Assembly: GCA_001604585.1 (NCBI GenBank) | Contig: LVBW01000038.1 | Coordinates: forward strand, 1-49,104 | DNA length: 49,104 nucleotides | Direction of reading: 5' to 3' | Source of the DNA: Puniceicoccales bacterium Verruco_02 | Lineage (GTDB): Bacteria > Verrucomicrobiota > Verrucomicrobiia > Opitutales > Oceanipulchritudinaceae | Shown here: positions 13,818 to 48,492 of the stretch, one piece after another | How the letters are laid out: every line of letters begins with the position of its first letter | Position numbering within the stretch: position 1 is the stretch's first letter | The notes under the pieces: generated by a model | What the model was told of the DNA's origin: nothing | Seen by the model: only the letters and a program-made list of their open reading frames with translations | Database searches by the model: none | Translations under genes and position numbers: made by a program

Positions 13818-13886
13818 TGCCTTTAACTCCTTTTGCCGCGGGCGGCAGAATCGGCCGCGCACAGTGTCGCTGCCGAAGTTAAGCAC

Positions 13887-14465: not shown

Positions 14466-14511
14466 CTGTAAATATCTCTTCTGGGGTTAAGACCTGCAAG
14501 GGCAGGGAAGG

Positions 14512-15348: not shown

Positions 15349-15390
15349 GATGCTGTGTTTCCTTCTGTATTTATAATATGGGTCTGCCGC

Positions 15391-15831: not shown

Positions 15832-15847
15832 CTTGCGTGTCTTTCCC

Positions 15848-16909: not shown

Positions 16910-16947
16910 GGCTCTTATCGTAGCTTCGTATATGCCCTCTGACGGTT

Positions 16948-16964
16948 GCGGAAATGTTTTCCGC
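16948..16964. repeat. Small perfect inverted repeat upstream of fliK
   Basis: GCGGAAA and TTTCCGC flank three bases, a perfect 7-bp dyad in the 119-bp gap between the MotE-like gene and fliK, 39 bases before the fliK ATG. No U-tract follows on the minus strand. It could be an RNA hairpin that tunes expression within the operon, or chance. Confidence 0.25.
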
Positions 16965-17028
16965 GAAATTTGCCCGCAGAGGCTCTTGCTCCATACAGCG
17001 TTTACCGTGCCTATGGTGAGGCTATCTG

Positions 17029-17664
17029 CTACCTTGGAGCAGCATCCACGCGAAGGCGCTTAAGCTTTTCGAGTATGTTGGCCACGCGCTTCTCGGGCGT
17101 TGTGGCAGTTGGGTCGCTCCCCGCTGGTTGGGCCAGCATCAGCTCCAGTATCGGACCTACGGCATCGGCTTTCATAAGGCCGAGCACCTTTACCACGTCG
17201 TCGTCGCTTTTCTGGTTGAAGAGGGTGACAACGGTCGCAGGCTCCATGTTGTTTATTATGGCCACTTCCTCGCGGATGCGGCGGGCCTCTCCGGCCTTGA
17301 CCTCGATTATGTAGTCGGAAAGTTCTTTGCGCGCTCTTGTTATCTCGTCGCGCAGGCGCTGGTTTTCCTTGCGCTCGCTCTGAATCTGGGCCTCCTGCGC
17401 CGCCACTGCGTCGATGCGTGCCTGAAGGGCCTCGCGCTGGTCGGCCAGATCGCGTATCATCTTGTTGATCTCGCTCGTGCGGAAGCTCCAGTACACGAAC
17501 TGGGTGCGCTCGTGGGCCTCCATCTTGGCAAACTCGTTGTTATGGACGGTGAGAATGCGGGTAAACACCTTCTCGCTTCGCATGAAAAGGACTGCGAGGC
17601 TGACTGCGAATATGGCGACAGAGGCCGCCGTGGTCGCCAGAATTCTGGGTAATGCTCCTGCCAT
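17029..17664 (-). CDS. MotE-like flagellar membrane protein (MgtE-N fold)
   Basis: This 211-residue protein has one N-terminal transmembrane helix at about 8-28 (ILATTAASVAIFAVSLAVLF). A long coiled coil follows at about 60-125 (IRDLADQREALQARIDAVAAQEAQIQ...), then a C-terminal helical domain with MEPATVVTLFNQKSDDDVVKVLGLMKADAVGPILELM. That last part matches the MgtE intracellular N-domain pattern also found in FliG and MotE. MotE-type proteins are stator chaperones in epsilon-proteobacteria and others, and genes of this type often lie between fliJ and fliK. The stator role is inferred from layout and position; motA and motB are not in the window. Confidence 0.7.
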   Translation of the reverse strand: MAGALPRILATTAASVAIFAVSLAVLFMRSEKVFTRILTVHNNEFAKMEAHERTQFVYWSFRTSEINKMIRDLADQREALQARIDAVAAQEAQIQSERKENQRLRDEITRARKELSDYIIEVKAGEARRIREEVAIINNMEPATVVTLFNQKSDDDVVKVLGLMKADAVGPILELMLAQPAGSDPTATTPEKRVANILEKLKRLRVDAAPR

Positions 17665-17677
17665 TGTTTACCGCTTC

Positions 17678-18127
17678 TCAGGCGCTGCGGGCAAGGCCGC
17701 TGCGTGCTATGACAATATCTTCGATTTCAATTTCCTCCTTGCGGAAGCCTTCGGCCAAGTGCTCTTTGTGCTGTTTTTCCCGCAGGTGTTCAAGTATCTC
17801 TTTCTGACGTTTGCGGTCGAGGAATTCCGCCAGTTTGCGCTCTTTGACCTGTTCTGCTTCTTCGAGTAGCTTGTTCCGTCTGGCCAATTCCAAGCGGGAC
17901 TCGTCCAGCGCCTTCATGTAGGCGTGGCGCATGGAGGCAGAAAAGCGTCCCTCGCCGTCGGCACCGATGAGGCGTTCGAGGTCTTCGCTACGGCGGCTTG
18001 CCGAGAGCACGTCCGCACGCTTGTCGGCGCAGTCGCGCACGCTGATGGCATAGGCTTCGAGGGCCTGTTCCTGTTTGAGACCGCGCAGGGTGAGTATTGC
18101 CTGAAGAGGGAATTGAAACTTTTTCAT
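17678..18127 (-). CDS. fliJ: Flagellar export protein FliJ
   Basis: FliJ is the coiled-coil stalk of the flagellar export ATPase that inserts into the FliI hexamer and contacts FlhA. The 149 residues start MKKFQFPLQAILTLRGLKQEQALEAYA, the typical FliJ opening (F-x-F-x-LQ-x-LL-x-LR), and are almost wholly alpha-helical and highly charged throughout, fitting a two-helix hairpin. Length matches E. coli FliJ (147). It lies 41 bp downstream of fliI. Sequence is low in specific motifs, but N-terminus plus position make the call secure. Confidence 0.9.
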   Translation of the reverse strand: MKKFQFPLQAILTLRGLKQEQALEAYAISVRDCADKRADVLSASRRSEDLERLIGADGEGRFSASMRHAYMKALDESRLELARRNKLLEEAEQVKERKLAEFLDRKRQKEILEHLREKQHKEHLAEGFRKEEIEIEDIVIARSGLARSA

Positions 18128-18168
18128 GCCTTTGGTCCTCTCTGTTTCTATGGAGTGTGGAGCATGTT

Positions 18169-19494
18169 TCAGGCCATAGCCTTGGACAGCATGGCAAAGC
18201 TTTGGTCGCGTTTGAAAAGTTCGTTCGATTTCTGCCGCAAAAACTGGGCAATCGGCTCGTTTTTGTCGATTGCTCGGTCGAGGCGGGCGTTCGTGCCCCG
18301 TGGATATGCACCGATGTTTATGAGGTCCTCGTTTTTCCGGTACAGGGCCATTAGGTCACGCGCGGCGGAAACAATTTCCAGTTGCTTCTCGTTGCACACG
18401 CTGCGGGATAGACGGCTCACGCTCTGGAGCACGTCCACGGCGGGGTAGTGGTTGGCCTGCGCCAGGGTGCGTGAAAGCACGATATGCCCGTCGAGAATGC
18501 CGCGCACAGCGTCCGCAACCGGTTCGTTCATATCGTCGCCCTCAACGAGCACAGTGTAAATTGCAGTGATGGAGCCCGCCTCGCCCATGCCTGTACGCTC
18601 CAATAGGCGGGGCAGGAGGCTGAACACGCTGGGCGTGTAGCCGCGGGAAGTTGGCGGCTCGCCAATGGCAAGGCCTATCTCGCGCTGTGCCATGCAGAAG
18701 CGCGTCAGGCTGTCCATCATGAGCAGGGCCTTGGCCCCGGCGTCGCGAAAGCTTTCGGCTATGGCTGTGGCCATAAGCGCCGCGCGAAGGCGCAGCGGGG
18801 CAGGCTGGTCGGATGTGGAGACTACGACGATGCTCCGCTTCATGCCCTCGGGGCCGAGGTCGTTTTCGATGAATTCGCGTAGCTCGCGCCCGCGTTCGCC
18901 AACTAGCGAGAGCACGTTCACATCGCTGTCCGCCCCTCGCGCTATCATGCCAAGGAGGGTCGATTTGCCTACGCCAGAGCCTGCGAATATGCCCACGCGC
19001 TGGCCCGTGCCAAGGGGGGTGAAGGTATCAATGCTGCGAACTCCCGTGGAGAAGCCTTCCTTGATGGGGACTCTCAGCATGGGGTTTGGCGCCGGGCGGT
19101 TGAGTCCTCCAGCGGCGTATTCGGCACGTATCGGCCCCTTGCCGTCTATCGGGCGGCCAAGTCCGTCAATTACGCGGCCTATCAGGTTGCGCCCGGTGGG
19201 GACGCTGTTTGCCTGTGCAGCGGCGCGCACCTCGCAGCCGGGATGTATCTCGTGGATAGGCTCCAAGGGCATGAGCAGCACCCTGTTGTCGCGAAAGCCG
19301 ACCACCTCCGCCGTTGCGATGCCAGCACTGTTGTTGGAAAATAGCTCGCAGATTTCGCCAAGTGCCACTTCCGGTCCCTCGCTCTCGATGATGAGGCCCG
19401 TCACCTGCCGTACGTGGCCAATCTTGTCCGCCACGCGTACATTCTGAACGCGGCGGCGCATCCAGTCCACATTGTCGCTGAAGCGGTTGGTCAC
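18169..19494 (-). CDS. fliI: Flagellum-specific export ATPase FliI
   Basis: FliI is the hexameric ATPase that unfolds and delivers export substrates to the flagellar gate. The 441 residues resemble F1-beta. An N-terminal beta-barrel comes first, then Walker A AGSGVGKSTLLGMIARGA at about 170-187, Walker B ALLMMDSLTRFCMAQREIGLA, the segment GEPPTSRGYTPSVFSLLPRLLERTG typical of type III ATPases, and a C-terminal helical bundle. The ATG at 19494 overlaps the fliH stop by 4 bases, implying coupled translation. No anomalies were seen. Confidence 0.97.
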   Translation of the reverse strand: MTNRFSDNVDWMRRRVQNVRVADKIGHVRQVTGLIIESEGPEVALGEICELFSNNSAGIATAEVVGFRDNRVLLMPLEPIHEIHPGCEVRAAAQANSVPTGRNLIGRVIDGLGRPIDGKGPIRAEYAAGGLNRPAPNPMLRVPIKEGFSTGVRSIDTFTPLGTGQRVGIFAGSGVGKSTLLGMIARGADSDVNVLSLVGERGRELREFIENDLGPEGMKRSIVVVSTSDQPAPLRLRAALMATAIAESFRDAGAKALLMMDSLTRFCMAQREIGLAIGEPPTSRGYTPSVFSLLPRLLERTGMGEAGSITAIYTVLVEGDDMNEPVADAVRGILDGHIVLSRTLAQANHYPAVDVLQSVSRLSRSVCNEKQLEIVSAARDLMALYRKNEDLINIGAYPRGTNARLDRAIDKNEPIAQFLRQKSNELFKRDQSFAMLSKAMA

Positions 19495-20081
19495 TGGTGT
19501 GCCTTCTTTATCTCGCCCTCCACACGGCGGATTTTTGTCCGTATGCGCGAGTCAATTATGCCAAAGCGGCTCTGAATTAGTACGTCGCCGCTCGAAAGCT
19601 CTGCGTCGGCTTCGATGCGTAGGTCCGGGTAACGATCGTGGAAAGATTCGTGCTCCTGAAGCAGGGCGCTGTCCCGCTTTGAGAGGCGAAGGACGAGCTT
19701 CTCGTCCCCGCTGCCCACCTGAGCGAGCGCCGCATCTATGGCGCGCAATACTGCCGGGCGGTCCAGTTCGAGGCCCTCCCAGATTTTGTCCACGATGGCC
19801 AGCACAAGATCCGGGAGCTGTTCGTTGAAATCCTCAGACAGCTCTGCGTAACGCTTCTGTATCGAGGCGAGCACCTCGTCCTGAAGCTGTGCCATATCCC
19901 TCCGCGCCTGCATGATCTGCCGCTGGCAGACGGTTTCGGCGTCGGCGCGGCCCTGTTCGTAAGCCTTACGCTTGTCCGCATCGGCGTCGGCCGCCTGTAC
20001 AGGCTCCGGCCCGTAGTAGGCCACGTGCATACCCACAATTGGCTTGCGCAGGTGTATTCTCCCGTTTCCTTCTCCGGTCAT
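19491..20081 (-). CDS. fliH: Flagellar assembly protein FliH
   Basis: FliH dimerises, binds FliI and tethers it to FliN at the C ring. The 196 residues have a variable N-terminus, a charged helical stalk at about 40-95 (KRKAYEQGRADAETVCQRQIMQARRDM) and a C-terminal V-ATPase-E-like domain. That domain shows LVLAIVDKIWEGLELDRPAVLRAIDAAL, LRLSKRDSALLQEH and the signature SSGDVLIQSRFGIIDSRIRTKI. The stalk lacks the long GxxxG repeats found in many FliH proteins. It overlaps fliI by 4 bases and follows fliG after 39 bp. Confidence 0.92.
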   Translation of the reverse strand: MTGEGNGRIHLRKPIVGMHVAYYGPEPVQAADADADKRKAYEQGRADAETVCQRQIMQARRDMAQLQDEVLASIQKRYAELSEDFNEQLPDLVLAIVDKIWEGLELDRPAVLRAIDAALAQVGSGDEKLVLRLSKRDSALLQEHESFHDRYPDLRIEADAELSSGDVLIQSRFGIIDSRIRTKIRRVEGEIKKAHQ

Positions 20082-20120
20082 GGGTGCTCTTACTAGTCTT
20101 TGGTGTTGTGGGAGAAAATC

Positions 20121-21155
20121 TTACATCAGCCTGTCGCCGCCGCCGCCAGTATCGAGCGAAATCTCGCCCTCTTCCTCCAGTCGGCGTACCACCTGAATGA
20201 TGCGGTCCTGTGCGGCTTCGACTTCCTTCAGGCGCACCGGCCCGAGCATTTCCATTTCCTCCTTGATGGACTCTGCGGCGCGCTTTGACACGCTCTTGAG
20301 TATCATCTCCTGGAGGTTGGCGTTGGCGCTCTTCATGGCGACCACTAGGTCGCTCATCTCCAGCTCGCGGGTTACGCGCTGCAAATCGCTGATTTCCAGA
20401 CGCACAAGGTCCTCGAAGCTGAACATCTTGCGGCGTATCTGCATACCGAGCTGCGGGTTGCGCTCTTCGAGTTTCACGAGCAGGGTCTTGCTCGTCTCCT
20501 TGTCCATAAGGTTCAAAAGGTCCGCCACGCTGCGCACTCCGCCAGAGGAATGCATCGTGGGCTTGTGCTTGGTGTCAAAATGCTTCTTCAGGCAGCCGAC
20601 AACGCGCCCCACGTGTTCCAGGCTTGTGAACTCCATCGCGCCGATTCGCTCGACCACCTCTTCGCCCACTTCGGGCGAGAGCATTGAGATTAGCGAGGCG
20701 GCTTTTTCGTGCGAAAGGTGGCTGGTTATGAAGGCGATTGTCTGGGGCTGCTCTCCGCGTATCAGATTGTTGATCTGGCGCGGCTCCATGTCGGAGATTT
20801 CTTGAATGACCTCCATCGAGTTGCCAACGGGCGCAATGCGAGAGAGCAGGTTGGCCGCCTTGTAATCGCCCTTGGCCAGCTCCAGCGCGCGCTGCGCAAA
20901 GCGGGCACCGCCCAGTATAGCCCCAAGGCTGCCGGATATTATGTTCGAGAATTCGTCAACGACCTTGCGCTGGGTGTCCTCGTCGATGATGGAGAAGTGG
21001 CTTATCTCGCGGCAGATGGCCTCTATCTCGGCGTCTTCGAAGCCCTTCAACAGCTCGGAAGAAACTTCCGGTCCGATGACGACCAGGAACAGGGCCAGTT
21101 TCTGGACCTTGTTCAGGTTCTCGTAGTCGATTTTTTCTATGGCGATGTCGGCCAT
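20121..21155 (-). CDS. fliG: Flagellar motor switch protein FliG
   Basis: FliG couples the MS ring (FliF) to the C ring and receives torque from MotA. The 344 residues hold the N-terminal FliF-binding domain (KVQKLALFLVVIGPEVSSELLKGF), the middle domain and the C-terminal torque domain with alternating charged residues (ELSDLV-like EMSDLVVAMKSANANLQEMILKSVSKRAAESIKEEMEMLGPVR). The middle-domain EHPQ motif that contacts FliM reads EQPQ at 135-138 (GEQPQTIAFITSHL), a mild variant. It precedes fliH and follows fliF by 24 bp. Confidence 0.96.
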   Translation of the reverse strand: MADIAIEKIDYENLNKVQKLALFLVVIGPEVSSELLKGFEDAEIEAICREISHFSIIDEDTQRKVVDEFSNIISGSLGAILGGARFAQRALELAKGDYKAANLLSRIAPVGNSMEVIQEISDMEPRQINNLIRGEQPQTIAFITSHLSHEKAASLISMLSPEVGEEVVERIGAMEFTSLEHVGRVVGCLKKHFDTKHKPTMHSSGGVRSVADLLNLMDKETSKTLLVKLEERNPQLGMQIRRKMFSFEDLVRLEISDLQRVTRELEMSDLVVAMKSANANLQEMILKSVSKRAAESIKEEMEMLGPVRLKEVEAAQDRIIQVVRRLEEEGEISLDTGGGGDRLM

Positions 21156-21179
21156 TTGCGTCCCCTTGCGCTCGTTAGT

Positions 21180-22760
21180 TTACTTCTTGTTGTTGCCGCT
21201 TTCCAGTGCCCAGTTGCGAAGGGCTGTGGAAACATTTTCCGGCTTCTCGCGGATTAGCTCGTTGAGCAGTTCCGGGGTAAGGCGCGGTACTGCATCGGTG
21301 CCCTTCTTGCCGGAGGGGCTTTCTTCGTCCATTATTTCCAGCGTGTAAGGCTCGGGCTTGTGCTTTTTGAGTATGCGCAGGAACACCAAGAATATGATGG
21401 CGGCAAGGCCGACTACGACATAATTGCGCAGCATCTCGGCCCAGGAGAAAAGCTTCTGCACGGTATCCGGCTCCTCGAAGGCGACGGAGTCGGTCACGGG
21501 GGCAAAGTCCGCCTCGGCCACGGTTACGAGCGGAGTCTGTGCGCCGCGGGTCTCGTCCACGCCTATGGACTGGACGATCATCTGGCGAATCTGCTCCAAC
21601 TCTGCGGCGCTGCGCGGGTTTTCCTGTCTCTGGGCGCCTTCGCCCGTGTAGCGGCGGGCCACGAACACCGCGGCTGTGACGCGGCGGACGCTGCCGGGAG
21701 CCTTTACGGTCTCTGTGCGGCTAAGGCTTATTTCGTAATTTACGGTCCTGTTCTTTCTGCTTTCCTCACTGCTTGTGCTTGGCTCGCTGTTGGCAGCGGT
21801 CGTGTTTTCAAGCCCCGGAGTGTTGGCATTTGTGCCCACAGCGGCACCGGCATTGGTGCGCAGCTCTCGGGAACGGTTCACTTCGTCTGTCTGTGTCTGG
21901 TTGCGCACCACCTGCCCGTTGGGATCGTAGATCTCCTGGGTCAGGGTGGTGGCCTCGGTGTCCAGCTCGACAGAGACGCGGGCCACAACATTCTGCGGGC
22001 CTACGATTCTGGCGAGCATGGTTTCCACCTTGCGGGTGAAGTAGTCTTCGAGGCTTTTGCGGAACTTGAACTGTCCCGAAGCCGCCCCCACGACCTGATC
22101 CTGGGCAAGATCCTGCGAAAGGGCCTTGCCGTTGGCATCGACCACCACCACGTCGTTGGGCGAAAGACCCTCGACGCTGTTTGCGACAAGGAAGCGGATG
22201 GAGTTGACCGCGTCCTCGTCAATGGTCTTGCCCCCGGTGTCGATCATTACCGAGGCGGTCGCACGGGCCGGCTCGTTATTGACCATCAGGCGGTTCTGTG
22301 GGATGACAATCATCACCCTGGCGCTGCGCACGCCGCGCAGCTGCGTTATAGTCCGCTGCAATTCTCCCTGCATCGCGCGGTTGTAGTTGGTACGCTGAAC
22401 AAAGTCGCTTACGCCAAAGTTTGTGCGGTCAAATATTTCGTAACCGATGGAGCCGCCGTTGGGTATGCCCCGGCTGGCCATGTCCATGCGGATTTTGTAA
22501 ACGTTGTCCTTTGAGACGAATATCGAGCTGCCGTTGCGAATCTCGTAGCCGATGGCCTGCTCGTCCAGTGCCTGCACTACGTCGGACATGTCCTTGCCGT
22601 CCAGCCCTCCGTATAGGAGGACCATCTGCGGCTTGCCCGACCACATGAGCAGGGCGGCCATGCCCGCCACCACCAGCACGGCGGACAGGCTGAGCGATAC
22701 CTTCTGGTTGATGCCCAGTTCGTTCCAGAATTTGGCCAACTGCTTTGCGATGCCGTTCAT
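21180..22760 (-). CDS. fliF: Flagellar MS-ring protein FliF
   Basis: FliF builds the MS ring, the first flagellar structure in the inner membrane. The 526 residues have an N-terminal transmembrane helix (VSLSLSAVLVVAGMAALLMW), then ring-building motifs including LLYGGLDGKDMSDVVQALDEQAIGYEI and RTNYNRAMQGELQRTITQLRGVRSARVMIVIPQ. Further features are VEGLSPNDVVVVDANG, a periplasmic Asn/Thr/Ser-rich loop, a second transmembrane helix near 440 (YVVVGLAAIIFLVFLRIL) and the C-terminal FliG-binding tail LLNELIREKPENVSTALRNWAL. All parts are in order and the length is normal. Confidence 0.96.
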   Translation of the reverse strand: MNGIAKQLAKFWNELGINQKVSLSLSAVLVVAGMAALLMWSGKPQMVLLYGGLDGKDMSDVVQALDEQAIGYEIRNGSSIFVSKDNVYKIRMDMASRGIPNGGSIGYEIFDRTNFGVSDFVQRTNYNRAMQGELQRTITQLRGVRSARVMIVIPQNRLMVNNEPARATASVMIDTGGKTIDEDAVNSIRFLVANSVEGLSPNDVVVVDANGKALSQDLAQDQVVGAASGQFKFRKSLEDYFTRKVETMLARIVGPQNVVARVSVELDTEATTLTQEIYDPNGQVVRNQTQTDEVNRSRELRTNAGAAVGTNANTPGLENTTAANSEPSTSSEESRKNRTVNYEISLSRTETVKAPGSVRRVTAAVFVARRYTGEGAQRQENPRSAAELEQIRQMIVQSIGVDETRGAQTPLVTVAEADFAPVTDSVAFEEPDTVQKLFSWAEMLRNYVVVGLAAIIFLVFLRILKKHKPEPYTLEIMDEESPSGKKGTDAVPRLTPELLNELIREKPENVSTALRNWALESGNNKK

Positions 22761-22806
22761 AGTGTGGAAATGTGTTTGTGGCTAATAGTTTGCGGACGCT
22801 TTTGAA

Positions 22807-23334
22807 CTAGGCCTGTATGCGCGAAAGTTCCTTGTAGGATTCGACCAGCTTGTTTCGTACCTGTACGAGCAGGTCGAACGAAATACTGGCCTCCTGCATG
22901 GCGATCATGGCCTGATGAATGTTGTCGCTCTTGCCCAGCATCAGGTCGCTGGCGGCCTGTTCGGATGCCTTGCTCTTGGCATCCACGCTGTCCACAAAGC
23001 CCGTTAGCATCGAGGCAAAGCTCGGGGCCTCGCGCCCGCCCATGCCTACGTCGGCAAACACGCTGCGAGAGTTTTCCCCTATCTTTTCCGGGGTGGCGCC
23101 CATTCTGTCCACCTGGTTCTTTACCGCCTTTTGGAGATTTTCGACGCTGAAGTTGCCCAATAGCTTGCTCGCGTCCACGCCCTTGGTGCCGCTTTCTCCG
23201 CCGAGGGTCTTGGCAATGTCGGCCATGCTCTGCGCGTTGCCGAGCTTGTCGATTTCTCCTGTGATGTTGGACATGGAGCGGTTGCCCCCGAAGAAGGAGC
23301 CGCCCATTCCCTGTATGGAGCTAAGTAGTGACAT
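22807..23334 (-). CDS. fliE: Flagellar rod-MS-ring junction protein FliE, N-terminally extended
   Basis: FliE joins the MS ring to the proximal rod. The conserved FliE domain occupies the C-terminal half: SFASMLTGFVDSVDAKSKASEQAASDLMLGKSDNIHQAMIAMQEASISFDLLVQVRNKLVESYKELSRIQ, which is diagnostic. At 175 residues the protein is about 70 longer than E. coli FliE (104). The extra N-terminal part is Gly/Ser/Lys-rich without a recognisable domain. The ATG at 23334 has AAAGG upstream. Position between flgC and fliF is standard. Confidence 0.92.
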   Translation of the reverse strand: MSLLSSIQGMGGSFFGGNRSMSNITGEIDKLGNAQSMADIAKTLGGESGTKGVDASKLLGNFSVENLQKAVKNQVDRMGATPEKIGENSRSVFADVGMGGREAPSFASMLTGFVDSVDAKSKASEQAASDLMLGKSDNIHQAMIAMQEASISFDLLVQVRNKLVESYKELSRIQA

Positions 23335-23402
23335 TGCCTTTGGCCTTTCGCTTTATGTAAGTGTTTTTCAGTTCAAGAAAAGTGCTTCGCCGGGCTTTGT
23401 GC

Positions 23403-23834
23403 CTAGCTCTTGGTGCCCAGTGTGAGGGCCGTCTTGGCAATCTGGCGGGAGGTGCGCGCCACCTGGAGGTTGGCCTCGTAGGCGCGCGATGACACTATTA
23501 GGTCAACCATCTCGCGGGAGCTTTCCACGTTGGGCATCAGGACCATGCCGCGTTCGTCAGCGTCCGGGTGCTCGGGGTTGTACACCGTCTTGCCAGGTGT
23601 GTCGTCTCTGCGGATGTTGCTTATGCGCACGGCGCTGCTTGCGCCTGTTTTGTCCGTTGAACCCTGCTGCCCAAGCATCACCGATTCGAAGCTGACGATT
23701 TTGCGCTGATAGGGGCCGCCTTCTGGCGTCTTGGTCGTGAAGGCATTGGCGATGTTCTCGGCCACGATGTTCATGCGCGTGCGTTCCGCTTCGAGGGCGG
23801 AGGCAGTGGCCTGTAGTCCGGGCATCAGGTTCAT
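23403..23834 (-). CDS. flgC: Flagellar proximal rod protein FlgC
   Basis: FlgC is a proximal rod subunit. The 143 residues show the rod-protein N-terminus (GLQATASALEAERTRMNIVAENIANAFT, with the NIAN motif), a short central part (YQRKIVSFESVM) and the characteristic FlgC stretch NPEHPDADERGMVLMPNVESSREMVDLIVSSRAYEANLQVARTSRQIAKTAL at the C-terminus. Length matches E. coli FlgC (134). It follows flgB by 49 bp and precedes fliE by 68 bp. Confidence 0.95.
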   Translation of the reverse strand: MNLMPGLQATASALEAERTRMNIVAENIANAFTTKTPEGGPYQRKIVSFESVMLGQQGSTDKTGASSAVRISNIRRDDTPGKTVYNPEHPDADERGMVLMPNVESSREMVDLIVSSRAYEANLQVARTSRQIAKTALTLGTKS

Positions 23835-23883
23835 CGTTCTATTCCTTGCGTATCAGCTTGTTAAAGAGTGCGAAGCTATCTAC

Positions 23884-24267
23884 CTACACCTGCGTGCTAA
23901 TGGCGGTGCGCAGTAGCTGGTAGTCGTGGTTCATGTAGCGGGTGATATACTCGTATTCCAACTCGTTGCGGTTGATTTCCATCAGCTCTCTGTCCATCTC
24001 CACATTGTTGCCGTCGCAGCGCGAGCTGGGGGTTGCAAGGTCAATGCCCACAACTGGGGTGATGGCCTTTATACTTTGAGCTGAGCCGCTGCGCATGGCC
24101 TTGGAGAGCTGATCCTGAAAGCTGGCGCTAGACACATCCATGCGCTTGTAGCCTGGCACCTCGATATTGGCCAGATTTCCGGCCAGTGCCTCGTGGCGCA
24201 ACGCGTTGTAATCAAGCATCTTGCACGCGGCCTGATAGTTGCTGTTGCTGAATATGCCTTCGATCAT
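23884..24267 (-). CDS. flgB: Flagellar proximal rod protein FlgB, first gene of the operon
   Basis: FlgB is the most proximal rod subunit. From the ATG at 24267 the 127 residues begin MIEGIFSNSNYQAACKMLDYNALRHEALAGNLANIEVPGYKRMDV, a textbook FlgB N-terminus with NLAN motif, and end with ELEYEYITRYMNHDYQLLRTAIST. A frame continuing to 24351 adds 28 residues unlike any rod protein and is rejected. No Shine-Dalgarno-like site precedes the ATG. It heads a 13-kb unidirectional operon, so control of its upstream region governs the whole cluster. Confidence 0.93.
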   Translation of the reverse strand: MIEGIFSNSNYQAACKMLDYNALRHEALAGNLANIEVPGYKRMDVSSASFQDQLSKAMRSGSAQSIKAITPVVGIDLATPSSRCDGNNVEMDRELMEINRNELEYEYITRYMNHDYQLLRTAISTQV

Positions 24268-24278
24268 GCCAGATGAGC

Positions 24279-24294
24279 AGCAGGGGGCGTGCCA
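24279..24294 (-). promoter_or_regulatory. Sigma-54-like -24/-12 motif directly before flgB (weak)
   Basis: The minus strand reads TGGCACGCCCCCTGCT, with GG and GC separated by exactly 10 bases as sigma-54 promoters require; the -12 half is CTGCT rather than TTGCA. Predicted initiation would fall at about the flgB ATG, giving an almost leaderless mRNA, which agrees with the missing Shine-Dalgarno sequence but also makes a chance match possible. Confidence 0.2.
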
Positions 24295-24439
24295 CGTTTG
24301 TAAAAGAATTGCGTAAGTAGCAGGCAATGCGGAACTTGTGAGAATGGTCATTTTTTTCTGCCCAAGTATGCGGAAAGCTTTTCCTCCGCACTTAAGGAAT
24401 ATTTCGAACCTATTTCATGCGTTGGCATACGCTTTCTGT

Positions 24440-39908: not shown

Positions 39909-41594
39909 ATGGCAGAGAGCGCAGACAAGTTGATCAGCGTGTTCGTGGACGGCATCGAGGTTAAGGTGTCGCCCGGGACCAACATGATCGAAGCCGCCCA
40001 CAAGGCTGGCGTCGAGGTACCTCACTATTGCTATCATTCCCACCTGAGCGTCGCGGGTAACTGCCGCATGTGTCTTGTGGAAATGGGCACTCCGGGTGTG
40101 GACCGCAATACGCGCCAGCCCATTCTCGGGCCGGACGGCAAGCAGGTCATTCAGTGGATGCCCAAGCCGACTATCGCCTGCGCCACCAATGCGACGCCCG
40201 GCCTGCACATCCGCACTACGAGCAAGATCGTAAAGGACTGCCGCGAGGGCATAATGGAGTTTCTGCTCGTGAACCACCCGCTGGACTGCCCCATCTGCGA
40301 TCAGGCGGGCGAGTGTCACCTTCAGGAATACGCCACGGACTATGGGCGCGGATACAGCCGCTACGTGGAGGACAAGAACGTAAAGCCCAAGCGTACGATG
40401 ATCGGGCCGCGCGTCATCCTAGACAACGAACGTTGCATTCTCTGCGGGCGCTGTGTGCGCTTCTGCAAGGAGATAGCCAAGGACGAGGTGCTGGGTTTCA
40501 CCGAAAGGGGCAGCCATTCGACGATAGCCTGCTTCCCCGGCAAGACTCTGGACAACAATTACTCGCTAAACGTCGTGGACCTCTGCCCTGTGGGCGCGCT
40601 CACCTCCACGGACTTCCGCTTCAAGATGCGCGTGTGGTTTCTCAAGGAAACCCCTTCCATCTGCACCGAGTCCAGCACGGGCGTAAACACCACCGTATGG
40701 AGCCGCGAGGGCGTGATATACCGCATCACCCCGCGCCGCAACGACGCAGTGAACGACACCTGGATGAGCGACTCTGGCCGCGTCTTGTACAAGCAGGTGG
40801 CCGCCGAGAACCGCTCCACTGCCTATGCCATCGAGGGCAGGCCGGTGCAGGCCGCAGAGGCTGTGGCCGCGCTTGCGGACACTCTTTCCAAGGCAAAGGG
40901 CGTGGCCTTCCTCGCCAGTGGCAAGTCCAGCGTCGAGGAAATGTATCTACTAAAGAAGCTCGTCGCCGCAGTACCGGCAGGCACAAAGGCCGTGCATCTG
41001 GTCCCGCATGTGGACAAGGGCGACGATTTTCTCATCTCCGCGGACCGCAATCCCAACACTCGTGGCGCGCTTCTGACGGGTCTTGTAAAGGGCCTTGAAA
41101 GTGCAAAGTGCGAGTCGCTGCTCCCGATGGTGCAGGAGGGCAGCATAGACACCCTCGTATCTCTCAACGAGTGCGCAGGCGTCTGCGGCCTTGGTCGAGA
41201 AGAGCTTAAGAAACTCCAATACGTGTATCTTGGCACGCATTACTGCGAAACCAGCCAGTATGCCAATATCGAGGTGCCGCTCCTTACCGTGTTCGAGAAG
41301 GACGGCAGTTTCGTCAACCAGCAGTTCCGCCTTCAGAAGTTCTCGCAGGCCGTGCCCGGCCCCGAGGGCGTGATGAGCGACCGCGCCTTCATATTTGCCA
41401 CACTGGCCAAGCTGGGCGGCAAGGGACCGCGCAACGCCTCGGCAGAGGCCGTGTGGGAGAGCATGGCGGCGGATATTCCGCAGTTTGCGGGAATCAGTTT
41501 CGCCTCGATCCCGGCGGAGGGCCGCCCGATAGACGGCAGCGCCTTCGCCAGTCAGCCCTTCGCAGAGGGGAAGAACCTGCACTTCTCCGCATAG
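39909..41594 (+). CDS. nuoG: NADH-quinone oxidoreductase subunit G, N7-cluster ligands lost
   Basis: NuoG is the large iron-sulfur subunit in the electron-input arm of complex I. The 561 residues contain the N1b [2Fe-2S] ligands Cys41, Cys52, Cys55 and Cys91, the N5 ligands His123, Cys127, Cys130 and Cys136, and the N4 ligands Cys176, Cys179, Cys182 and Cys226. The N7 site found in many bacteria (CxxCxxxC, then a fourth Cys 28 residues on) is degenerate: Cys252 remains, but the other positions are Ser255, Val259 and Ser287. The rest is a shortened molybdopterin-oxidoreductase-like domain (E. coli NuoG has 908 residues). It heads this operon; nuoA-F are not upstream, where ychF diverges after a 163-bp gap. 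Confidence 0.95.
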   Translation: MAESADKLISVFVDGIEVKVSPGTNMIEAAHKAGVEVPHYCYHSHLSVAGNCRMCLVEMGTPGVDRNTRQPILGPDGKQVIQWMPKPTIACATNATPGLHIRTTSKIVKDCREGIMEFLLVNHPLDCPICDQAGECHLQEYATDYGRGYSRYVEDKNVKPKRTMIGPRVILDNERCILCGRCVRFCKEIAKDEVLGFTERGSHSTIACFPGKTLDNNYSLNVVDLCPVGALTSTDFRFKMRVWFLKETPSICTESSTGVNTTVWSREGVIYRITPRRNDAVNDTWMSDSGRVLYKQVAAENRSTAYAIEGRPVQAAEAVAALADTLSKAKGVAFLASGKSSVEEMYLLKKLVAAVPAGTKAVHLVPHVDKGDDFLISADRNPNTRGALLTGLVKGLESAKCESLLPMVQEGSIDTLVSLNECAGVCGLGREELKKLQYVYLGTHYCETSQYANIEVPLLTVFEKDGSFVNQQFRLQKFSQAVPGPEGVMSDRAFIFATLAKLGGKGPRNASAEAVWESMAADIPQFAGISFASIPAEGRPIDGSAFASQPFAEGKNLHFSA

Positions 41595-41645: not shown

Positions 41646-42758
41646 ATGGACTTGACTGACATACTTATCATGCTTCTGAAGGCCGTCGTGGTGGTGGTCC
41701 TCGTAATGGCAATTGCGGGTTACTCCGTTGTGGGCGAGCGCAAGGTGGCAAGCTGGGCGCAGGGGCGCCTGGGGCCGAACCGCACGACGATTCCGCTCCT
41801 TGGCTCTATCCCCGTGATTGGCCGCATCCTGACGCGCCTTGGCATTTTTCAGCTCCCGGCCGACGGTGCCAAGTTTCTCTTCAAGGAAGAGCCGCTGCCC
41901 GGCCATGTGAACAAGTTTTACTACATCCTCGCGCCCATCATCTCCTTCCTGCCCCCGATGATCATCCTCACGGTGCTGCCCTATGGCCAGTTCGTGAAGG
42001 ACGGCGTAATGGAGGCCGTGGCCTTGTCGCAGACCGATGTTGGCATACTCTTTGTGATGGCCGTATCCAGCATCAGCGTTTACGGCCTCATACTTGCTGG
42101 CTGGGCGGCCAATTCCAAGTTCCCTTTCCTAGGCGGGATACGTGCCAGCTCGCAGATGATTTCCTACGAGCTTTGCATCGGCCTTTCGCTGTTGCCCGTG
42201 TTCATGTGGACGGGCGGCACGCTGGACCTATTTGCCGTGGTGCAGGCGCAGGGTGGGGTGCTTTTTGGCGAGAGCATTGGTCTTCCCAAGTGGTTCATCA
42301 TTTATCAGCCCCTGTCGGCCCTGTTGTATCTAGTGGCCCTCTTTGCCGAGACCAACCGCCTGCCCTTCGACATGCCCGAGAGCGAGACGGACCTAGTGGG
42401 CGGCTTCCACACCGAGTATGGCGCGTTCAAGTTCGGCCTCTTTTTCGTGGGCGAATACGCGCACATGGTCGTTGGATCGGCCATTTTCAGCATAGTCTTC
42501 CTTGGCGGCTGGAGTATTCCCTTCCTTCCCCTCTCGGCATATCCTGAGGGCATACTCGGGGCGCTGCTTTCGGTAGTCGTGCTGGCGGCCAAGGTGATAT
42601 TCCTGCTCTTCTTCTTCATGTGGGTGCGCTGGACATTGCCGCGCTTCCGCTACGACCAAGTGATGAACCTCGGATGGAAGGTGCTGATGCCTCTGGCAGT
42701 GGCCAACCTTCTGGCCTACATGGTGATAATGGCAATCATGCCGGGTGCGCTTCTGTAA
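41646..42758 (+). CDS. nuoH: NADH-quinone oxidoreductase subunit H
   Basis: NuoH is the membrane subunit that forms the quinone chamber where the peripheral and membrane arms meet. The 370 residues are mostly hydrophobic with eight or so helices. Signatures are MAIAGYSVVGERKVASWAQGRLGPNRT near the N-terminus, SKFPFLGGIRASSQMISYELCIGLSLLPV in the middle, LFAETNRLPFDMPESETDLVGGFHTEYG (the Glu/Asp-rich loop lining the quinone path) and a C-terminal WVRWTLPRFRYDQVMNLGWKVLMPLAVANL. It follows nuoG by 51 bp. The next gene is not nuoI but a potassium channel. Confidence 0.97.
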   Translation: MDLTDILIMLLKAVVVVVLVMAIAGYSVVGERKVASWAQGRLGPNRTTIPLLGSIPVIGRILTRLGIFQLPADGAKFLFKEEPLPGHVNKFYYILAPIISFLPPMIILTVLPYGQFVKDGVMEAVALSQTDVGILFVMAVSSISVYGLILAGWAANSKFPFLGGIRASSQMISYELCIGLSLLPVFMWTGGTLDLFAVVQAQGGVLFGESIGLPKWFIIYQPLSALLYLVALFAETNRLPFDMPESETDLVGGFHTEYGAFKFGLFFVGEYAHMVVGSAIFSIVFLGGWSIPFLPLSAYPEGILGALLSVVVLAAKVIFLLFFFMWVRWTLPRFRYDQVMNLGWKVLMPLAVANLLAYMVIMAIMPGALL

Positions 42759-42800
42759 ATTGCCGATCTGCCCGCATAACCAAGCGGCAAAGAGCCTAAA

Positions 42801-43601
42801 ATGATGCAAGCACGCAACGACAGTTCAGACGGCGCCGGAGTGGGCGTCATGGACCTGTTTGTCGGCATTGTGTCGATTTATTCCATACTTCTGCTCGCCG
42901 TTGACCTTTCGATGGATCTTTCGCCCGAGCTGTCGGAAATGCTGATGTGGGCTGACAACGGCCTCTGTATATTATTCCTTAGCGACCTTGCCTACCGCTT
43001 TTACAAGAGCGATGACAAGCTCAGCTTCTGGAAATGGGGCTGGCTGGACCTTCTTGCGAGCATACCAATGCTGCCTTGGTTCCGCTGGGCGCGTTCGGTA
43101 CGCCTTGTCCGTATCCTGCGCATACTGCGAGCTTACCGCGGTCTGCGGATGCTGCATCAGCAGCTTACACTACGCCGCAGCGCCACGCTTGCCTCGTCGG
43201 TGTTCCTGTTGTTCTACACCGTTGTAATGATCAGCACTCCGGCCATCCTCATAGCGGAAAGTGGGGCTGTTGAGGCAAATATTCGCACGCCGGGTCAGGC
43301 GCTTTGGTGGGTTTTCGCGACGATGAGCACAGTTGGTTATGGGGACTTTTACCCCGTTACGGCAGCCGGGCGCATCGTAGGAGCCTTTACGATGATGCTC
43401 GGCATAGGCCTGTTTGGCATGGCAATGGCATCGCTGATGTCCTTGTTCGGCTTCAGCCAGGCGGGGGCATCGCAAGACGAACTGCTCGCAATTAGAGCCG
43501 AGGTGGAACAACTCAAGGCCACCCTCGCGGGTGGTACCGCTCTAGATGGAGAGGACGCCACCTACGGCAATGATTGCAAGATGCAACGGAAAACCTTTTA
43601 A
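42801..43601 (+). CDS. Voltage-gated potassium channel inserted in the nuo operon
   Basis: This 266-residue six-helix channel subunit would assemble as a tetramer in the inner membrane. S1-S3 lie at about 15-90. The S4 voltage sensor has arginines at 95, 98, 101, 104, 107, 110, 113 and 116, exactly every third residue. S5 is at about 127-152, the pore helix ends in the K+ selectivity filter TVGYGD (177-182), and S6 is at about 192-217. A C-terminal helix (QDELLAIRAEVEQLKATL) looks like a short tetramerisation coiled coil. It lies 42 bp after nuoH and ends 12 bp before nuoI, same strand, so it is almost certainly co-transcribed with complex I genes. No ligand-binding (RCK or cNMP) domain is present. 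The alternative ATG at 42849 would remove part of the N-terminus. Confidence 0.93.
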   Translation: MMQARNDSSDGAGVGVMDLFVGIVSIYSILLLAVDLSMDLSPELSEMLMWADNGLCILFLSDLAYRFYKSDDKLSFWKWGWLDLLASIPMLPWFRWARSVRLVRILRILRAYRGLRMLHQQLTLRRSATLASSVFLLFYTVVMISTPAILIAESGAVEANIRTPGQALWWVFATMSTVGYGDFYPVTAAGRIVGAFTMMLGIGLFGMAMASLMSLFGFSQAGASQDELLAIRAEVEQLKATLAGGTALDGEDATYGNDCKMQRKTF

Positions 43602-43613
43602 ACAGACCGGAAC

Positions 43614-44159
43614 ATGGCCATCAAAGTCCTACACCGCAAGCCGCTTACTCTGGCTGAACGCACCTACATCCTGCCCATACTGAGCGGGTTGCGCATCACG
43701 CTGCGCAACATGATAAAGGCCCCGGTGACGCTCGAATACCCCGAGGAAAAACCAGCCATTCCCAAAGGCTATCGTGGCGTGCCCACTCTGGTCAAAGACC
43801 CGAACGGGCGCGAGAAGTGCGTATCCTGCCAGCTTTGCGAATTTGTCTGCCCGCCCAAGGCCATACGCATAACACCCGGTGAGATAGTGGATCCGGCCAA
43901 CGCCCATGTGGAAAAGGCCCCGAAGGACTTCGAGCTGAACATGCTCCGCTGCATCTACTGCGGCCTTTGCGAGGAAGTCTGTCCGGAGCAGGCTATAGTT
44001 CTTCAGGACATTTATTCGATGAACTCCGAAACCCGCGAGGAGATAGTCCTGCACAAGGACAAGCTCTACGAACTTGGCGGCACCCTGCCGGATGCGCATT
44101 TCAAGTGGGACAAAAAGAAGAAGGCCGCAGACGAGGCCGCCCACGGAGGTCACCACTAA
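43614..44159 (+). CDS. nuoI: NADH-quinone oxidoreductase subunit I
   Basis: NuoI carries clusters N6a and N6b, passing electrons toward N2 and quinone. The 181 residues have two ferredoxin-type [4Fe-4S] motifs: CVSCQLCEFVCPPKAI and CIYCGLCEEVCPEQAI. The N-terminal part (YPEEKPAIPKGYRGVPTL) and the region between the clusters are typical. The C-terminus is Lys/His-rich (KKKKAADEAAHGGHH). The ATG at 43614 follows the channel stop by 12 bases. No abnormality was seen. Confidence 0.97.
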   Translation: MAIKVLHRKPLTLAERTYILPILSGLRITLRNMIKAPVTLEYPEEKPAIPKGYRGVPTLVKDPNGREKCVSCQLCEFVCPPKAIRITPGEIVDPANAHVEKAPKDFELNMLRCIYCGLCEEVCPEQAIVLQDIYSMNSETREEIVLHKDKLYELGGTLPDAHFKWDKKKKAADEAAHGGHH

Positions 44160-44213: not shown

Positions 44214-44744
44214 ATGATGCACGACGTGCTCTTTTACCTATTTGCCGCCATGACGCTGGCCCCTGCACTCCTTCTTGTGTGCAGCCGCAACACCGTCAAC
44301 GCCGCCATGCTGATGATCGTGTCCTTCATTGGCGCGGCATCGCTCTTTGCCCTGCTTCAGGCCTACCTCCTGGCCGTGCTTCAGGTCATGGTGTATGCCG
44401 GGGCCGTGGTTGTGCTCTTCCTTTTCATAATCATGCTGCTAGATGTGGGGCACGAGGGGAGGCTGCGCGCAGCCCTCTCAAAGCTCGTCGCGCCTCTGGC
44501 CTTTTTCGCTGCCCTTGGCTGCTGCTCTGTGCTGGCCATACTCTCCGGAAGGGGAGGGGAGGCCCCCGCAGGGCTTGAGGCCTCGCCCGCTGCCAGTGCC
44601 GAGAGCTTTGGCATGTTGCTCTTTACCAAGTATCAGCTTGCCTTCGAGCTGACGGGCTTTTTGCTGCTCGCCGCAATGGTGGGCGTCATCTTCATATCTA
44701 GGCGTGCAATTCCCGCCGGAAACCGTACCGAGGGGAAGGAATAA
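44214..44744 (+). CDS. nuoJ: NADH-quinone oxidoreductase subunit J
   Basis: NuoJ is a small membrane subunit beside NuoK; its TM3 pi-bulge is involved in coupling. The 176 residues have five hydrophobic helices, including the conserved VLQVMVYAGAVVVLFLFIIMLLD that forms TM3. A Gly/Glu/Ala-rich loop at about 105-130 precedes the last helix. Two adjacent ATGs at 44214 and 44217 are both possible starts. It lies 54 bp after nuoI and 6 bp before nuoK. Confidence 0.95.
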   Translation: MMHDVLFYLFAAMTLAPALLLVCSRNTVNAAMLMIVSFIGAASLFALLQAYLLAVLQVMVYAGAVVVLFLFIIMLLDVGHEGRLRAALSKLVAPLAFFAALGCCSVLAILSGRGGEAPAGLEASPAASAESFGMLLFTKYQLAFELTGFLLLAAMVGVIFISRRAIPAGNRTEGKE

Positions 44745-44750
44745 GCTACC

Positions 44751-45074
44751 ATGCTGCCAGTCGCTCTCAACCATTACCTGATCGTCGCCGCCCTGCTGTT
44801 CTGCACGGGCTTTGCAGGCGTTTTGCTGCGGCGCAACGTGATAGTCGTCTTCATGTGCCTTGAGCTTATGCTCAACGCGGCCAATATCGCGCTAGTGGCC
44901 TTTTCCCGCTACAACGCCACGGTCGAACGCCCCATGATGGACGGCAACGTATTCGTCTTTTTTGTCATTACAGTGGCCGCCGCAGAGGTTGCCACGGGAC
45001 TTGCGATCATCGTGGCCCTGTACCGCAGGCGCGGTACCGTGATGGCCGACGATCTCACTGCGCTAAAGAAATAA
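44751..45074 (+). CDS. nuoK: NADH-quinone oxidoreductase subunit K
   Basis: NuoK is a three-helix MrpC-like subunit of the proton-pumping chain. The 107 residues contain the two buried glutamates needed for pumping: Glu38 in [18 protein letters not shown] and Glu79 in [18 protein letters not shown] (E. coli Glu36 and Glu72). The loop between them is a few residues longer than in E. coli, with PMMDGNVF. It starts 6 bp after nuoJ and ends 4 bp before nuoL. Confidence 0.97.
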
Positions 45075-45078
45075 GGCC

Positions 45079-46929
45079 ATGACGCGGACCCTTCTTACAA
45101 TCCTTCTTTGCCCGCTACTTGCGGCCGCCCTCATCGCCCTTTTCGGGCGCAGTCGCGGCCGCCTATCCGCTGGCATATCCATACTCTCTGCCGCTGCGCA
45201 GATGGCGCTGACCCTTCGCCTGCTCTTCGGCGGCTGGGACGGCCTGCCTTTCAGCGATAGCATACGCTGGATGACCCTTGGCAGCCTGAATCTGGACATG
45301 GGCTTTTACTTCAACGACATGTCGGCCCTGTTGCTGATGGTCGTAACCGTGGTGGGCTTCCTCATCCACGTATTTGCCTTTGGCTATTCGGATCATGACA
45401 AGTGCCGGGGCCGCTTCTTTGGCGGGCTCTCGCTATTCATGTTTTCGATGACGGGCATCGTCGTATCGGGCAACCTGTTCATGATGTTCGTGTTCTGGGA
45501 ACTGGTCGGCTTCTGCTCATACATGCTCATCGGCCACTACCTGAGCGCCGAGGCAAGCTCCGCGGCCAAGAAGGCCTTCATTGTCAACCGCGTGGGCGAC
45601 TTCGGCTTTCTAATCGGCATTATCTGGTGCTTCTGGCAGTTCGGCACGGTGAACCTCGCGGATCTTCCCGCCGCCATGAGCGCAAGCCCAGCCGCTGCGG
45701 GCACGCTTACGGCCATCGGTCTTCTCCTTTTCTGCGGCGTACTGGGCAAGAGTGCTCAGATGCCCCTGCATGTGTGGCTGCCGGACGCCATGGCAGGCCC
45801 GACGCCTGTCTCCGCCCTCATACACGCCGCGACAATGGTCGCCGCCGGTGTGTATCTACTTGGCAGGGTGCAGTTTATCTTTACGCCGGACGCGCTGAAC
45901 GTCATTCTTGCAGTCGGCCTTGTGACGGCTCTTTACTCGGCCATCTGCGCCTTTGGTCAGACTGACATCAAGAAGATACTGGCCTATTCGACGCTTTCCC
46001 AGCTCGGCTTCATGGTGAGCGCATTTGCCCTAGTCGGCGGCATGGAGGGCGCGGCAAGTTCGCAGTTCCACCTTACCACACACGCCTTTTTCAAGGCCCT
46101 GCTCTTTCTTGGCGCAGGCAGCGTCATTCACGCCAGTCACCACGAGCAGGACATTTACAAGATGGGCGGTCTCTGGAAGAAGATGCCCCTTACCTTTGCA
46201 ACCTTTCTTGTGGCCACGCTGGCCATTGCGGGCCTGCCATATCTATCGGGCTTTTTCTCCAAGGACGCCATACTGCTCCTTGCCTGGCACAACAGCCCGG
46301 CGGCGTTCTACACTCTGGTCTTTGCCTCACTGTTGACGGCCACCTACATGGGCCGAATCATCTTTGTCGCCTTTCTTGGCAAGCCGCGCAGCGAGGCCGC
46401 AGAGCACGCGCACGAGAGCCGAATCGACATGGTGCTGCCCCTGCTTGTTCTGGCAGTTATGGCCGTTCTTGGCGGCTATACCGGCCTATATCCAGAGGCT
46501 CTCTCGCATTATCTGCATCAGCATGTGCCACATGCCGAAGGCAGCGAGCACACGATGATTCTGCTTATTTCCGCAGCACTGTCCCTTGGCGGTATGCTCA
46601 TTGCGTTCCTGCTCTACTATCGCCCGGATGCCAAGGCGGACACTGTGCAGCGCAGGCTGCCGGCCCTCTTCGCCCTGCTCAAGGGCAAGTTATGGTTCGA
46701 CGAGCTTTACCTCTTTTACGTAAACGGCATTCAGCAGAGGCTGGCCAATGTTGCAGCGTTCTTGGAGCAGGTGCTCATTCAGGGTTTCTGCGTCCGCGGT
46801 TCGGGCGGGGTGTCGGGCCTTATCGGTGTCGCCCTTCGCAGGGCACACACGGGCCGCCTCAACACTTATCTTTACTGGTTCGCCGCTGGCGTACTCATTT
46901 TCTGGATCTACTCATCGGGGGTTCTCTAA
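45079..46929 (+). CDS. nuoL: NADH-quinone oxidoreductase subunit L
   Basis: NuoL is the distal antiporter-like proton-pumping subunit with the long lateral helix. The 616 residues match E. coli length (613). Visible hallmarks are the conserved TM5 glutamate Glu141 in FVFWELVGFCSYMLIG, the VNRVGDFGFLIG motif, KSAQMPLHVWLPDAMAGPTPVSALIHAATMVAAGVYLL and DIKKILAYSTLSQLGFM. THAFFKALLFLGAGSVIHA follows, and the C-terminal part contains helix HL and a last TM helix (WFAAGVLIFWIYSSG). It starts 4 bp after the nuoK stop. Confidence 0.97.
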   Translation: MTRTLLTILLCPLLAAALIALFGRSRGRLSAGISILSAAAQMALTLRLLFGGWDGLPFSDSIRWMTLGSLNLDMGFYFNDMSALLLMVVTVVGFLIHVFAFGYSDHDKCRGRFFGGLSLFMFSMTGIVVSGNLFMMFVFWELVGFCSYMLIGHYLSAEASSAAKKAFIVNRVGDFGFLIGIIWCFWQFGTVNLADLPAAMSASPAAAGTLTAIGLLLFCGVLGKSAQMPLHVWLPDAMAGPTPVSALIHAATMVAAGVYLLGRVQFIFTPDALNVILAVGLVTALYSAICAFGQTDIKKILAYSTLSQLGFMVSAFALVGGMEGAASSQFHLTTHAFFKALLFLGAGSVIHASHHEQDIYKMGGLWKKMPLTFATFLVATLAIAGLPYLSGFFSKDAILLLAWHNSPAAFYTLVFASLLTATYMGRIIFVAFLGKPRSEAAEHAHESRIDMVLPLLVLAVMAVLGGYTGLYPEALSHYLHQHVPHAEGSEHTMILLISAALSLGGMLIAFLLYYRPDAKADTVQRRLPALFALLKGKLWFDELYLFYVNGIQQRLANVAAFLEQVLIQGFCVRGSGGVSGLIGVALRRAHTGRLNTYLYWFAAGVLIFWIYSSGVL

Positions 46930-46932
46930 GCG

Positions 46933-48492
46933 ATGGAAGGCTTCACCTGTCCCTTTTCCTTAACATATAGCGCGCTGCTGTTCTGGACAGTGGCCGTGCC
47001 CTTGGCCGCGTCTTTGCCGCTGCTGTTGGGCTGCCTTAAGGGCACTCCGGCAAGGCTCTTGGCTGCGCTGGGCGCGATGTTGCCACTGCTCGGCGCTCTG
47101 TATCTGGCGGCCCACTATGCGGGTGCCTACACTGTCGGCGGCTATGCCTTTTACTGCAATGCGCAGCTTGGCCTACCAGCGGCTGGTATCGCCCTGAAGC
47201 TGGGCCTGAACGGCATATCGCTGCCCATGTTCGTCATGGCGGCCATTGTCAGCTTCTGTGCGGTTCTTTACGCCATAGGCGGCAGGCAGGAGCGTCAATC
47301 CCTGTATCTGGGCCTTTTGCTCGTAATGAGCAGCGGCGTTCTGGGTCTTTTCGCATCCATTGACCTGTTCTATTTCTACTTTTTCCACGAACTGGCGCTC
47401 ATCCCGACCTTCATCATGATCGGCATATGGGGTGGCAAGGCCCGTCGCGTGGCAGCCATAGAGATGACCATTTACCTTACCCTGGGCGCAATGCTCGTGC
47501 TGGCGGGGCTTGTTGCGCTGTATGTGCTAAGCGGTCTCAACACTTTCGACTTCATTACGCTCAGGCAGGCAATCGCACAGAACCCGCTAGGCGAAGGCTC
47601 GCAGCACTGGATATACGGCCTTCTGCTCATCGGTTTTGGCATTCTTGTCTCGCTCTTCCCCTTTCACACCTGGGCACCTCGGGGCTATGCCAATGCGCCG
47701 GCCAGTGCCGCCATGCTGCACGCGGGCGTATTGAAAAAGTTCGGCCTCTACGGACTTATCCAGCTCATAGCCCCGCTGCTTCCCGTGGGAGCGGCATCGT
47801 GGACGGGTCTGCTCGTAGTCCTCGCCCTTTGCAACGTGCTCGTCATCGGCCTTATAACGATGGCGCAGAAAGACCTGCGCTACATGCTGGGGTACAGCTC
47901 CGTCATGCACATGGGCTATGCCTTCCTCGGCATCGCCACGATGGGCACCCTTGGCCTTGGCGCGGCGCTCATGATGATGTTCGCGCACGGGCTGGCAGTT
48001 GCGGCGCTTTTCCTCATGGCGGACTGCGTTGCAGTGCGCAACAGCGGGGAGACCGACATGGCCTCGATCGGCGGCATGGTGAAGCATACGCCCGTCTTTG
48101 CAGCCTTTTTTGCCGCAGCCACCTTTGCGAGTGCGGGCCTTCCCGGCTTTGCCAATTTCTGGGGAGAGCTGGGCATATTCACCGCTGTTTTCAAGATGAA
48201 CAGCACGGTGAGTGCCCTAGCCATTCTCGGCATCATAATCTCGGCCATCTACGGTCTGCGCGCCCTGGCGGCGATATTCTACGGCCCCCATTCAAAGGCT
48301 TACGAGCAGCGCATCGCCCAATACGGCGCTCCTGCCGACCTTCAGCCCTACGAGAAGCTACCCGTCATGATCCTTCTTGGCGCACTGATGTTCGCTGGCT
48401 TTTGGCCGCGAGCCGTCAGCGAACCTGTCAACGCCGAGCTTTCCTCACGCCAGCCAGCCGTAGCAGTCCAGACCGCAAACGCAGCCGAATAA
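46933..48492 (+). CDS. nuoM: NADH-quinone oxidoreductase subunit M
   Basis: NuoM is the middle antiporter-like pumping subunit of complex I. The 519 residues show the essential Glu153 in YFFHELALIPTFIMIGIWGG (E. coli Glu144), FPFHTWAPRGYANAPASAAMLHAGVLKKFGLYGL and KDLRYMLGYSSVMHMGYAFLG. The C-terminal pair GLPGFANFWGELGIF and ISAIYGLRALAAIFYGP follow. A tail of about 40 residues (ELSSRQPAVAVQTANAAE) is unremarkable. It begins 3 bases after the nuoL stop and is followed by nuoN after 15 bases. Confidence 0.97.
   Translation: MEGFTCPFSLTYSALLFWTVAVPLAASLPLLLGCLKGTPARLLAALGAMLPLLGALYLAAHYAGAYTVGGYAFYCNAQLGLPAAGIALKLGLNGISLPMFVMAAIVSFCAVLYAIGGRQERQSLYLGLLLVMSSGVLGLFASIDLFYFYFFHELALIPTFIMIGIWGGKARRVAAIEMTIYLTLGAMLVLAGLVALYVLSGLNTFDFITLRQAIAQNPLGEGSQHWIYGLLLIGFGILVSLFPFHTWAPRGYANAPASAAMLHAGVLKKFGLYGLIQLIAPLLPVGAASWTGLLVVLALCNVLVIGLITMAQKDLRYMLGYSSVMHMGYAFLGIATMGTLGLGAALMMMFAHGLAVAALFLMADCVAVRNSGETDMASIGGMVKHTPVFAAFFAAATFASAGLPGFANFWGELGIFTAVFKMNSTVSALAILGIIISAIYGLRALAAIFYGPHSKAYEQRIAQYGAPADLQPYEKLPVMILLGALMFAGFWPRAVSEPVNAELSSRQPAVAVQTANAAE

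Follow-up and report, generated by a model that had tools for sequence, protein, structure and literature searches.

At the right-hand end of the 49,104-nucleotide stretch of DNA analysed here (contig LVBW01000038.1 of Puniceicoccales bacterium Verruco_02; hereafter the window) lies a cluster of complex I genes in the order nuoG-H-channel-I-J-K-L-M-(N), all on the plus strand, with nuoN truncated by the contig end (Table 1). The channel gene is an intact ORF encoding 266 aa. The coordinates bear out the original prediction that it sits within the complex I operon, 42 bp from nuoH and 12 bp from nuoI. A consensus scan of the two window gaps flanking the channel gene, which is weak evidence, found nothing resembling a promoter or terminator; the genes share one strand and are separated by short gaps free of such sites, the properties by which we assign them to one operon. 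Upstream of nuoG there is a divergent ychF-like gene. NuoG is short (561 aa), as elsewhere in the family. The complex I genes of this genome are split, with nuoG-N in the window and nuoF on another contig (G000:C32:55560-56078), where by eye its neighbour is an oxaloacetate-decarboxylase-like gene.

Table 1 Positions of the nuo genes, the channel gene and features of the channel in the window
Feature	Position	Strand	Basis or remark
nuoG, first gene of the cluster	39909..41594	+	TIGR01973 7.7e-124, somewhat below cut-off
nuoH	41646..42758	+	PF00146 (NADHdh) 8.2e-102; single copy in genome
nuoH-channel gap, 42 bp	42759..42800	+	no promoter- or terminator-like site
Kv-type six-transmembrane K+ channel gene	42801..43601	+	Ion_trans 1.8e-20, structure model, three-genome conservation
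S4 voltage-sensor codons, R95 to R116	43083..43148	+	sequence; alignment columns
K+ selectivity filter TVGYGD, residues 177-182	43329..43346	+	sequence; alignment
Predicted C-terminal cytoplasmic helix, residues 220-249	43458..43547	+	AlphaFold secondary structure
channel-nuoI gap, 12 bp	43602..43613	+	
nuoI	43614..44159	+	TIGR01971 125.6 bits, above cut-off
nuoJ	44214..44744	+	PF00499 5.8e-31
nuoK	44751..45074	+	position and homologous ORFs in relatives
nuoL	45079..46929	+	position and homologous ORFs in relatives
nuoM	46933..48492	+	position and homologous ORFs in relatives
nuoN by position, cut at contig end	48508..49104	+	open ORF; identity inferred from operon order

The channel protein scores 73.6 bits against Pfam Ion_trans (PF00520; cut-off 25), which places it in that superfamily, and 54.3 bits against Ion_trans_2 (PF07885; cut-off 22.5). 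An AlphaFold model (mean pLDDT 82.5) has helices at residues 16-37 (S1), 42-69 (S2), 73-86 (S3), 92-124 (S4), 128-153 (S5) and 188-215 (S6), with a pore helix at 164-176 and a C-terminal helix at 220-249 that could possibly serve as a tetramerisation coil. Together with the Pfam match and the TVGYGD filter, the model agrees with the complete six-helix Kv-type channel that had been predicted. The eight S4 arginines spaced three apart were likewise found, at residues 95, 98, 101, 104, 107, 110, 113 and 116, and F59, D62 and D83 occupy what we take to be the places of the Kv charge-transfer centre, with its acidic partners in S2 and S3. The model resembles solved channels: VIA-align matched its pore to that of KcsA (Z 15.2) and aligned it with KvAP over 205 residues (Z 13.3, rmsd 6.0). 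Full-length TM scores from Foldseek were low (about 0.3), which we attribute to a different relative orientation of the two domains in the monomer model. KvAP was also the best PDB match by sequence (chain 6uwm, 3e-18), with Shaker/Kv1 among the best. The best NCBIfam channel model, NF040645 (hyperpolarisation-activated), reached 46.7 bits against a cut-off of 300 and does not claim the protein. We conclude that, judged by its sequence, this is an ordinary bacterial Kv-type protein, a further member of a known family.

An alternative start at an internal ATG (42849), which has GGAG upstream, is disfavoured, since G002, a relative described below, is similar before this ATG and Verruco_01, another, has no Met there. 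At the other end of the gene, the stretch GGCAATGATTGCAA (near-palindrome GCAATGATTGC; window 43566-43579) is present in the window genome and Verruco_01 and absent from G002.

This small genus is represented by three genomes of uncultured Opitutales: the window genome (G000), Puniceicoccales bacterium Verruco_01 (G001; LVBV01) and G002. The channel gene occupies the same place between nuoH and nuoI, in the same orientation, in all three, with gaps on the nuoH and nuoI sides of 42 and 12 bp in the window genome, 36 and 23 bp in G002, and 22 and 14 bp in Verruco_01. The encoded proteins are 69% (G002) and 51% (Verruco_01) identical to that of the window. By alignment, G002 shares the eight S4 arginines and Verruco_01 has six, with Q and E in two places; the TVGYGD filter is kept in all three genomes and is nearly invariant across 79 homologues. 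A nuoH-channel-nuoI junction common to three assemblies rules out an assembly artefact, and homology, together with conservation of the arrangement in two further genomes, excludes chance. Given that the gaps are short in three genomes and that those in the window hold no promoter- or terminator-like site, a transcript shared by nuoH, the channel gene and nuoI is likely, and the layout suggests that the channel would be made together with proton-pumping complex I.

Outside the genus, we compared 39 Opitutales genomes with an orthologous nuo operon, 13 of them from the same family. None of the 39 operons contains a channel. As had been supposed, nuoH and nuoI are normally contiguous: they adjoin in 38 of these operons, with gaps of up to 123 bp and one overlap. 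In the exception, G024, an unrelated ORF on the opposite strand lies between them; nuoH and nuoI are about 0.9 kb apart there, and the intervening ORF (L219 5521-6192) resembles a PEP-CTERM-type surface protein. The survey of relatives' nuo operons proposed with the original prediction thus finds the channel throughout the genus and nowhere in the other Opitutales operons. Absence from all close relatives combined with a separate promoter and terminator around the gene, the pattern named in advance as evidence against a link, was not what we found.

Channels of this kind are common elsewhere. Profile searches covered 373 genomes in the order and 388 in the phylum, a sample of each with one genome per species, and recovered many related channels. 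Gene neighbourhoods were inspected for the best matches, which comprised 30 order-search loci, 20 longer stretches and 14 loci new in the phylum search; nuo genes adjoin the channel in the three genus members and in no other of these. Among the best 80 loci from an alignment-based search of a contig collection, nuo genes adjoin only the Verruco_01 channel. One member of the same family, G009, carries a homologue that is 43-44% identical and located elsewhere in its genome. Among the genomes examined, the nuo-embedded channel is confined to this genus. The literature that we searched, which took in only a minority of subscription journals, contained no relevant report of a nuo operon carrying a K+ channel gene and no paper naming Verruco_01. 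As far as this literature and the examined genomes show, the position of the channel gene in the operon is an undescribed variant.

A tree of 114 channels groups the three nuo-linked proteins as a clade (100/100) whose stem is long (1.21). A single clade on a long stem indicates one insertion or acquisition followed by retention. The tree resolves no sister to this clade, and no vertical link to the G009 homologue. Between the window genome and G002, the channel gene has pN 0.21 and pS 0.84; with pS near saturation, the pN/pS ratios are rough, including the value of 0.25 for the closest pair, which together with an intact ORF in all three genomes rules out a decaying pseudogene. We conclude that the channel gene is under purifying selection. 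In the same comparison, protein identity is 0.69 for the channel, 0.89 for nuoH and 0.87 for nuoI, and pS is 0.84 for the channel against 0.58 for nuoH and 0.56 for nuoI. Lower identity and higher pS than those of its neighbours argue against a stoichiometric subunit; the pattern would fit a functional protein that is less constrained than complex I subunits and perhaps produced in smaller amounts.

In the window genome, which is 96.6% complete, no PF00520 or PF07885 protein other than the channel was found. K+ uptake is represented by two TrkH-family genes (Trk/Ktr-type systems). Cytochrome bd is present and no heme-copper oxidase is recognisable in the genome, which suggests microaerobic or anaerobic life. 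Elsewhere in the window, a minus-strand run at 11212-24351 resembles a flagellar cluster by eye (fliP, fliM, fliI, fliG and fliF-like genes).

The original prediction proposed that a channel gated by depolarisation could balance charge while complex I pumps. The two parts of this proposal are incompatible, and it is partly backwards: pumping hyperpolarises the membrane and would close a depolarisation-gated channel, which would stabilise the potential rather than balance charge. To compensate charge during pumping, K+ would have to enter at negative potentials, which takes a hyperpolarisation-activated or voltage-independent channel. The safest reading of the sequence is that this is a K+ channel in its own right, expressed together with complex I. 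We extend this to a model, with about an even chance of being right, in which a Kv-type channel gene was inserted once in the ancestor of the genus, is co-transcribed with nuoG-N and stabilises the membrane potential. A standalone bacterial Kv-type gene would have entered between nuoH and nuoI and then been kept. Its spacing and direction suggest co-transcription with nuoG-N, so that the channel would be made whenever complex I is made, presumably as a separate tetramer in the same membrane and not as a subunit of the complex. By analogy with Kv anatomy, the voltage sensor would hold the pore shut while complex I pumping keeps the inside strongly negative; if the potential fell, K+ would flow out along the gradient that the two Trk/Ktr-type systems have set up, restoring the negative potential. 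K+ conduction, gating polarity and the link to respiration are all inferred here from the protein and its gene's neighbours.

Several observations support the stabilising role. The gene has kept its place in three of three genomes despite identities of only 69% and 51% and a changed upstream flank, which in Verruco_01 is an unrelated opposite-strand gene. It is under purifying selection and encodes the only such channel in the genome; the S4 and filter features and the structural match point the same way, as does the presence of K+ uptake genes and cytochrome bd. Other observations count against it: Verruco_01 has replaced two of its S4 arginines, the best NCBIfam model, though far below its cut-off, is a hyperpolarisation-activated one, and a single insertion in one genus could have been retained passively, because disrupting the operon carries a cost and the channel may bring benefits that have nothing to do with complex I. 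A functional link between channel and complex I is plausible and rests on one evolutionary event. More tentatively, and with somewhat less than an even chance in our estimation, the complex I operon took on a voltage-sensing K+ channel dedicated to it; pump and potential sensor or stabiliser would then be expressed as a unit and jointly set the membrane potential.

The same single event is the starting point of the main rival, hitch-hiking, in which the gene landed by chance in an always-on nuo operon and its role is a general one in K+ or osmotic homeostasis that has nothing specifically to do with complex I; the gene would be retained as the only such channel in the genome, and because excision would endanger the operon. 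The protein is an ordinary homologue of a widespread family found in non-nuo contexts elsewhere, it evolves faster than nuoH and nuoI, and the ORF in G024 implies that the nuoH-nuoI junction tolerates inserts, all of which fits hitch-hiking. Against it, all three genomes retain the orientation and the tight spacing even though they have diverged widely and the upstream flank has changed. We regard hitch-hiking as a serious possibility, though less likely than not.

In a second rival, a charge-compensation shunt, the channel is open, or opened by hyperpolarisation, at the potentials set by complex I. An influx of K+ would then shift the proton-motive force from its electrical to its pH part, in line with the original prediction. 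The gene's location beside those of a proton pump is consistent with this, and the cyanobacterial channel SynK is a precedent for a K+ channel playing such a part in a proton-pumping membrane (PMC3928508). We nevertheless consider it improbable, given that S4 is Kv-like, that the PDB sequences matching best are those of KvAP and Shaker/Kv1, and that without tight gating a K+ pathway open at strongly negative potential would waste energy. Far less probable still is an accessory subunit, a channel-like protein bound to the complex I membrane arm as an integral part. Gene order speaks for it and nothing else does: the protein retains all the characteristics of a channel, divergence is much faster than in the neighbouring subunits, and complex I operons of relatives lack the gene. 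Kv channels, moreover, are tetramers.

The role of bacterial voltage-gated K+ channels is often unclear. A conserved channel gene within a complex I operon offers a concrete, testable lead linking such a channel to the respiratory membrane potential.

Like the window channel, KvAP and other bacterial and archaeal Kv channels (PF00520) have six helices, an S4 arginine at each third residue and TVGYGD. KvAP is about 26% identical to the window channel, and among the homologue loci examined the complex I operon setting is found only with the genus channels. Homologues of the same subfamily in other Opitutales, Vibrio, Halomonas and Bacteroidota are about 30-44% identical and have no nuo genes within 1.5 to 10 kb on each side where the contig allows. 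A different ion-transport gene among complex I genes is that of Rhodothermus marinus, whose complex I cluster reportedly includes the Na+/H+ antiporter gene nhaD (Melo et al. 2005). This product is an antiporter and not a voltage-gated channel, and the phylum is unrelated. A 2006 paper on the antiporter is cited in PMC9408914. SynK, a K+ channel of the photosynthetic membranes of Synechocystis, is reported to control the electrical component of the proton-motive force, and knock-outs have a larger membrane potential (PMC3928508). SynK too is a K+ channel in a proton-pumping membrane; its role was tested by knock-out, whereas the window channel is known from sequence. If the link to respiratory membrane potential is real, it would be a respiratory counterpart of the role reported for SynK in photosynthetic membranes.
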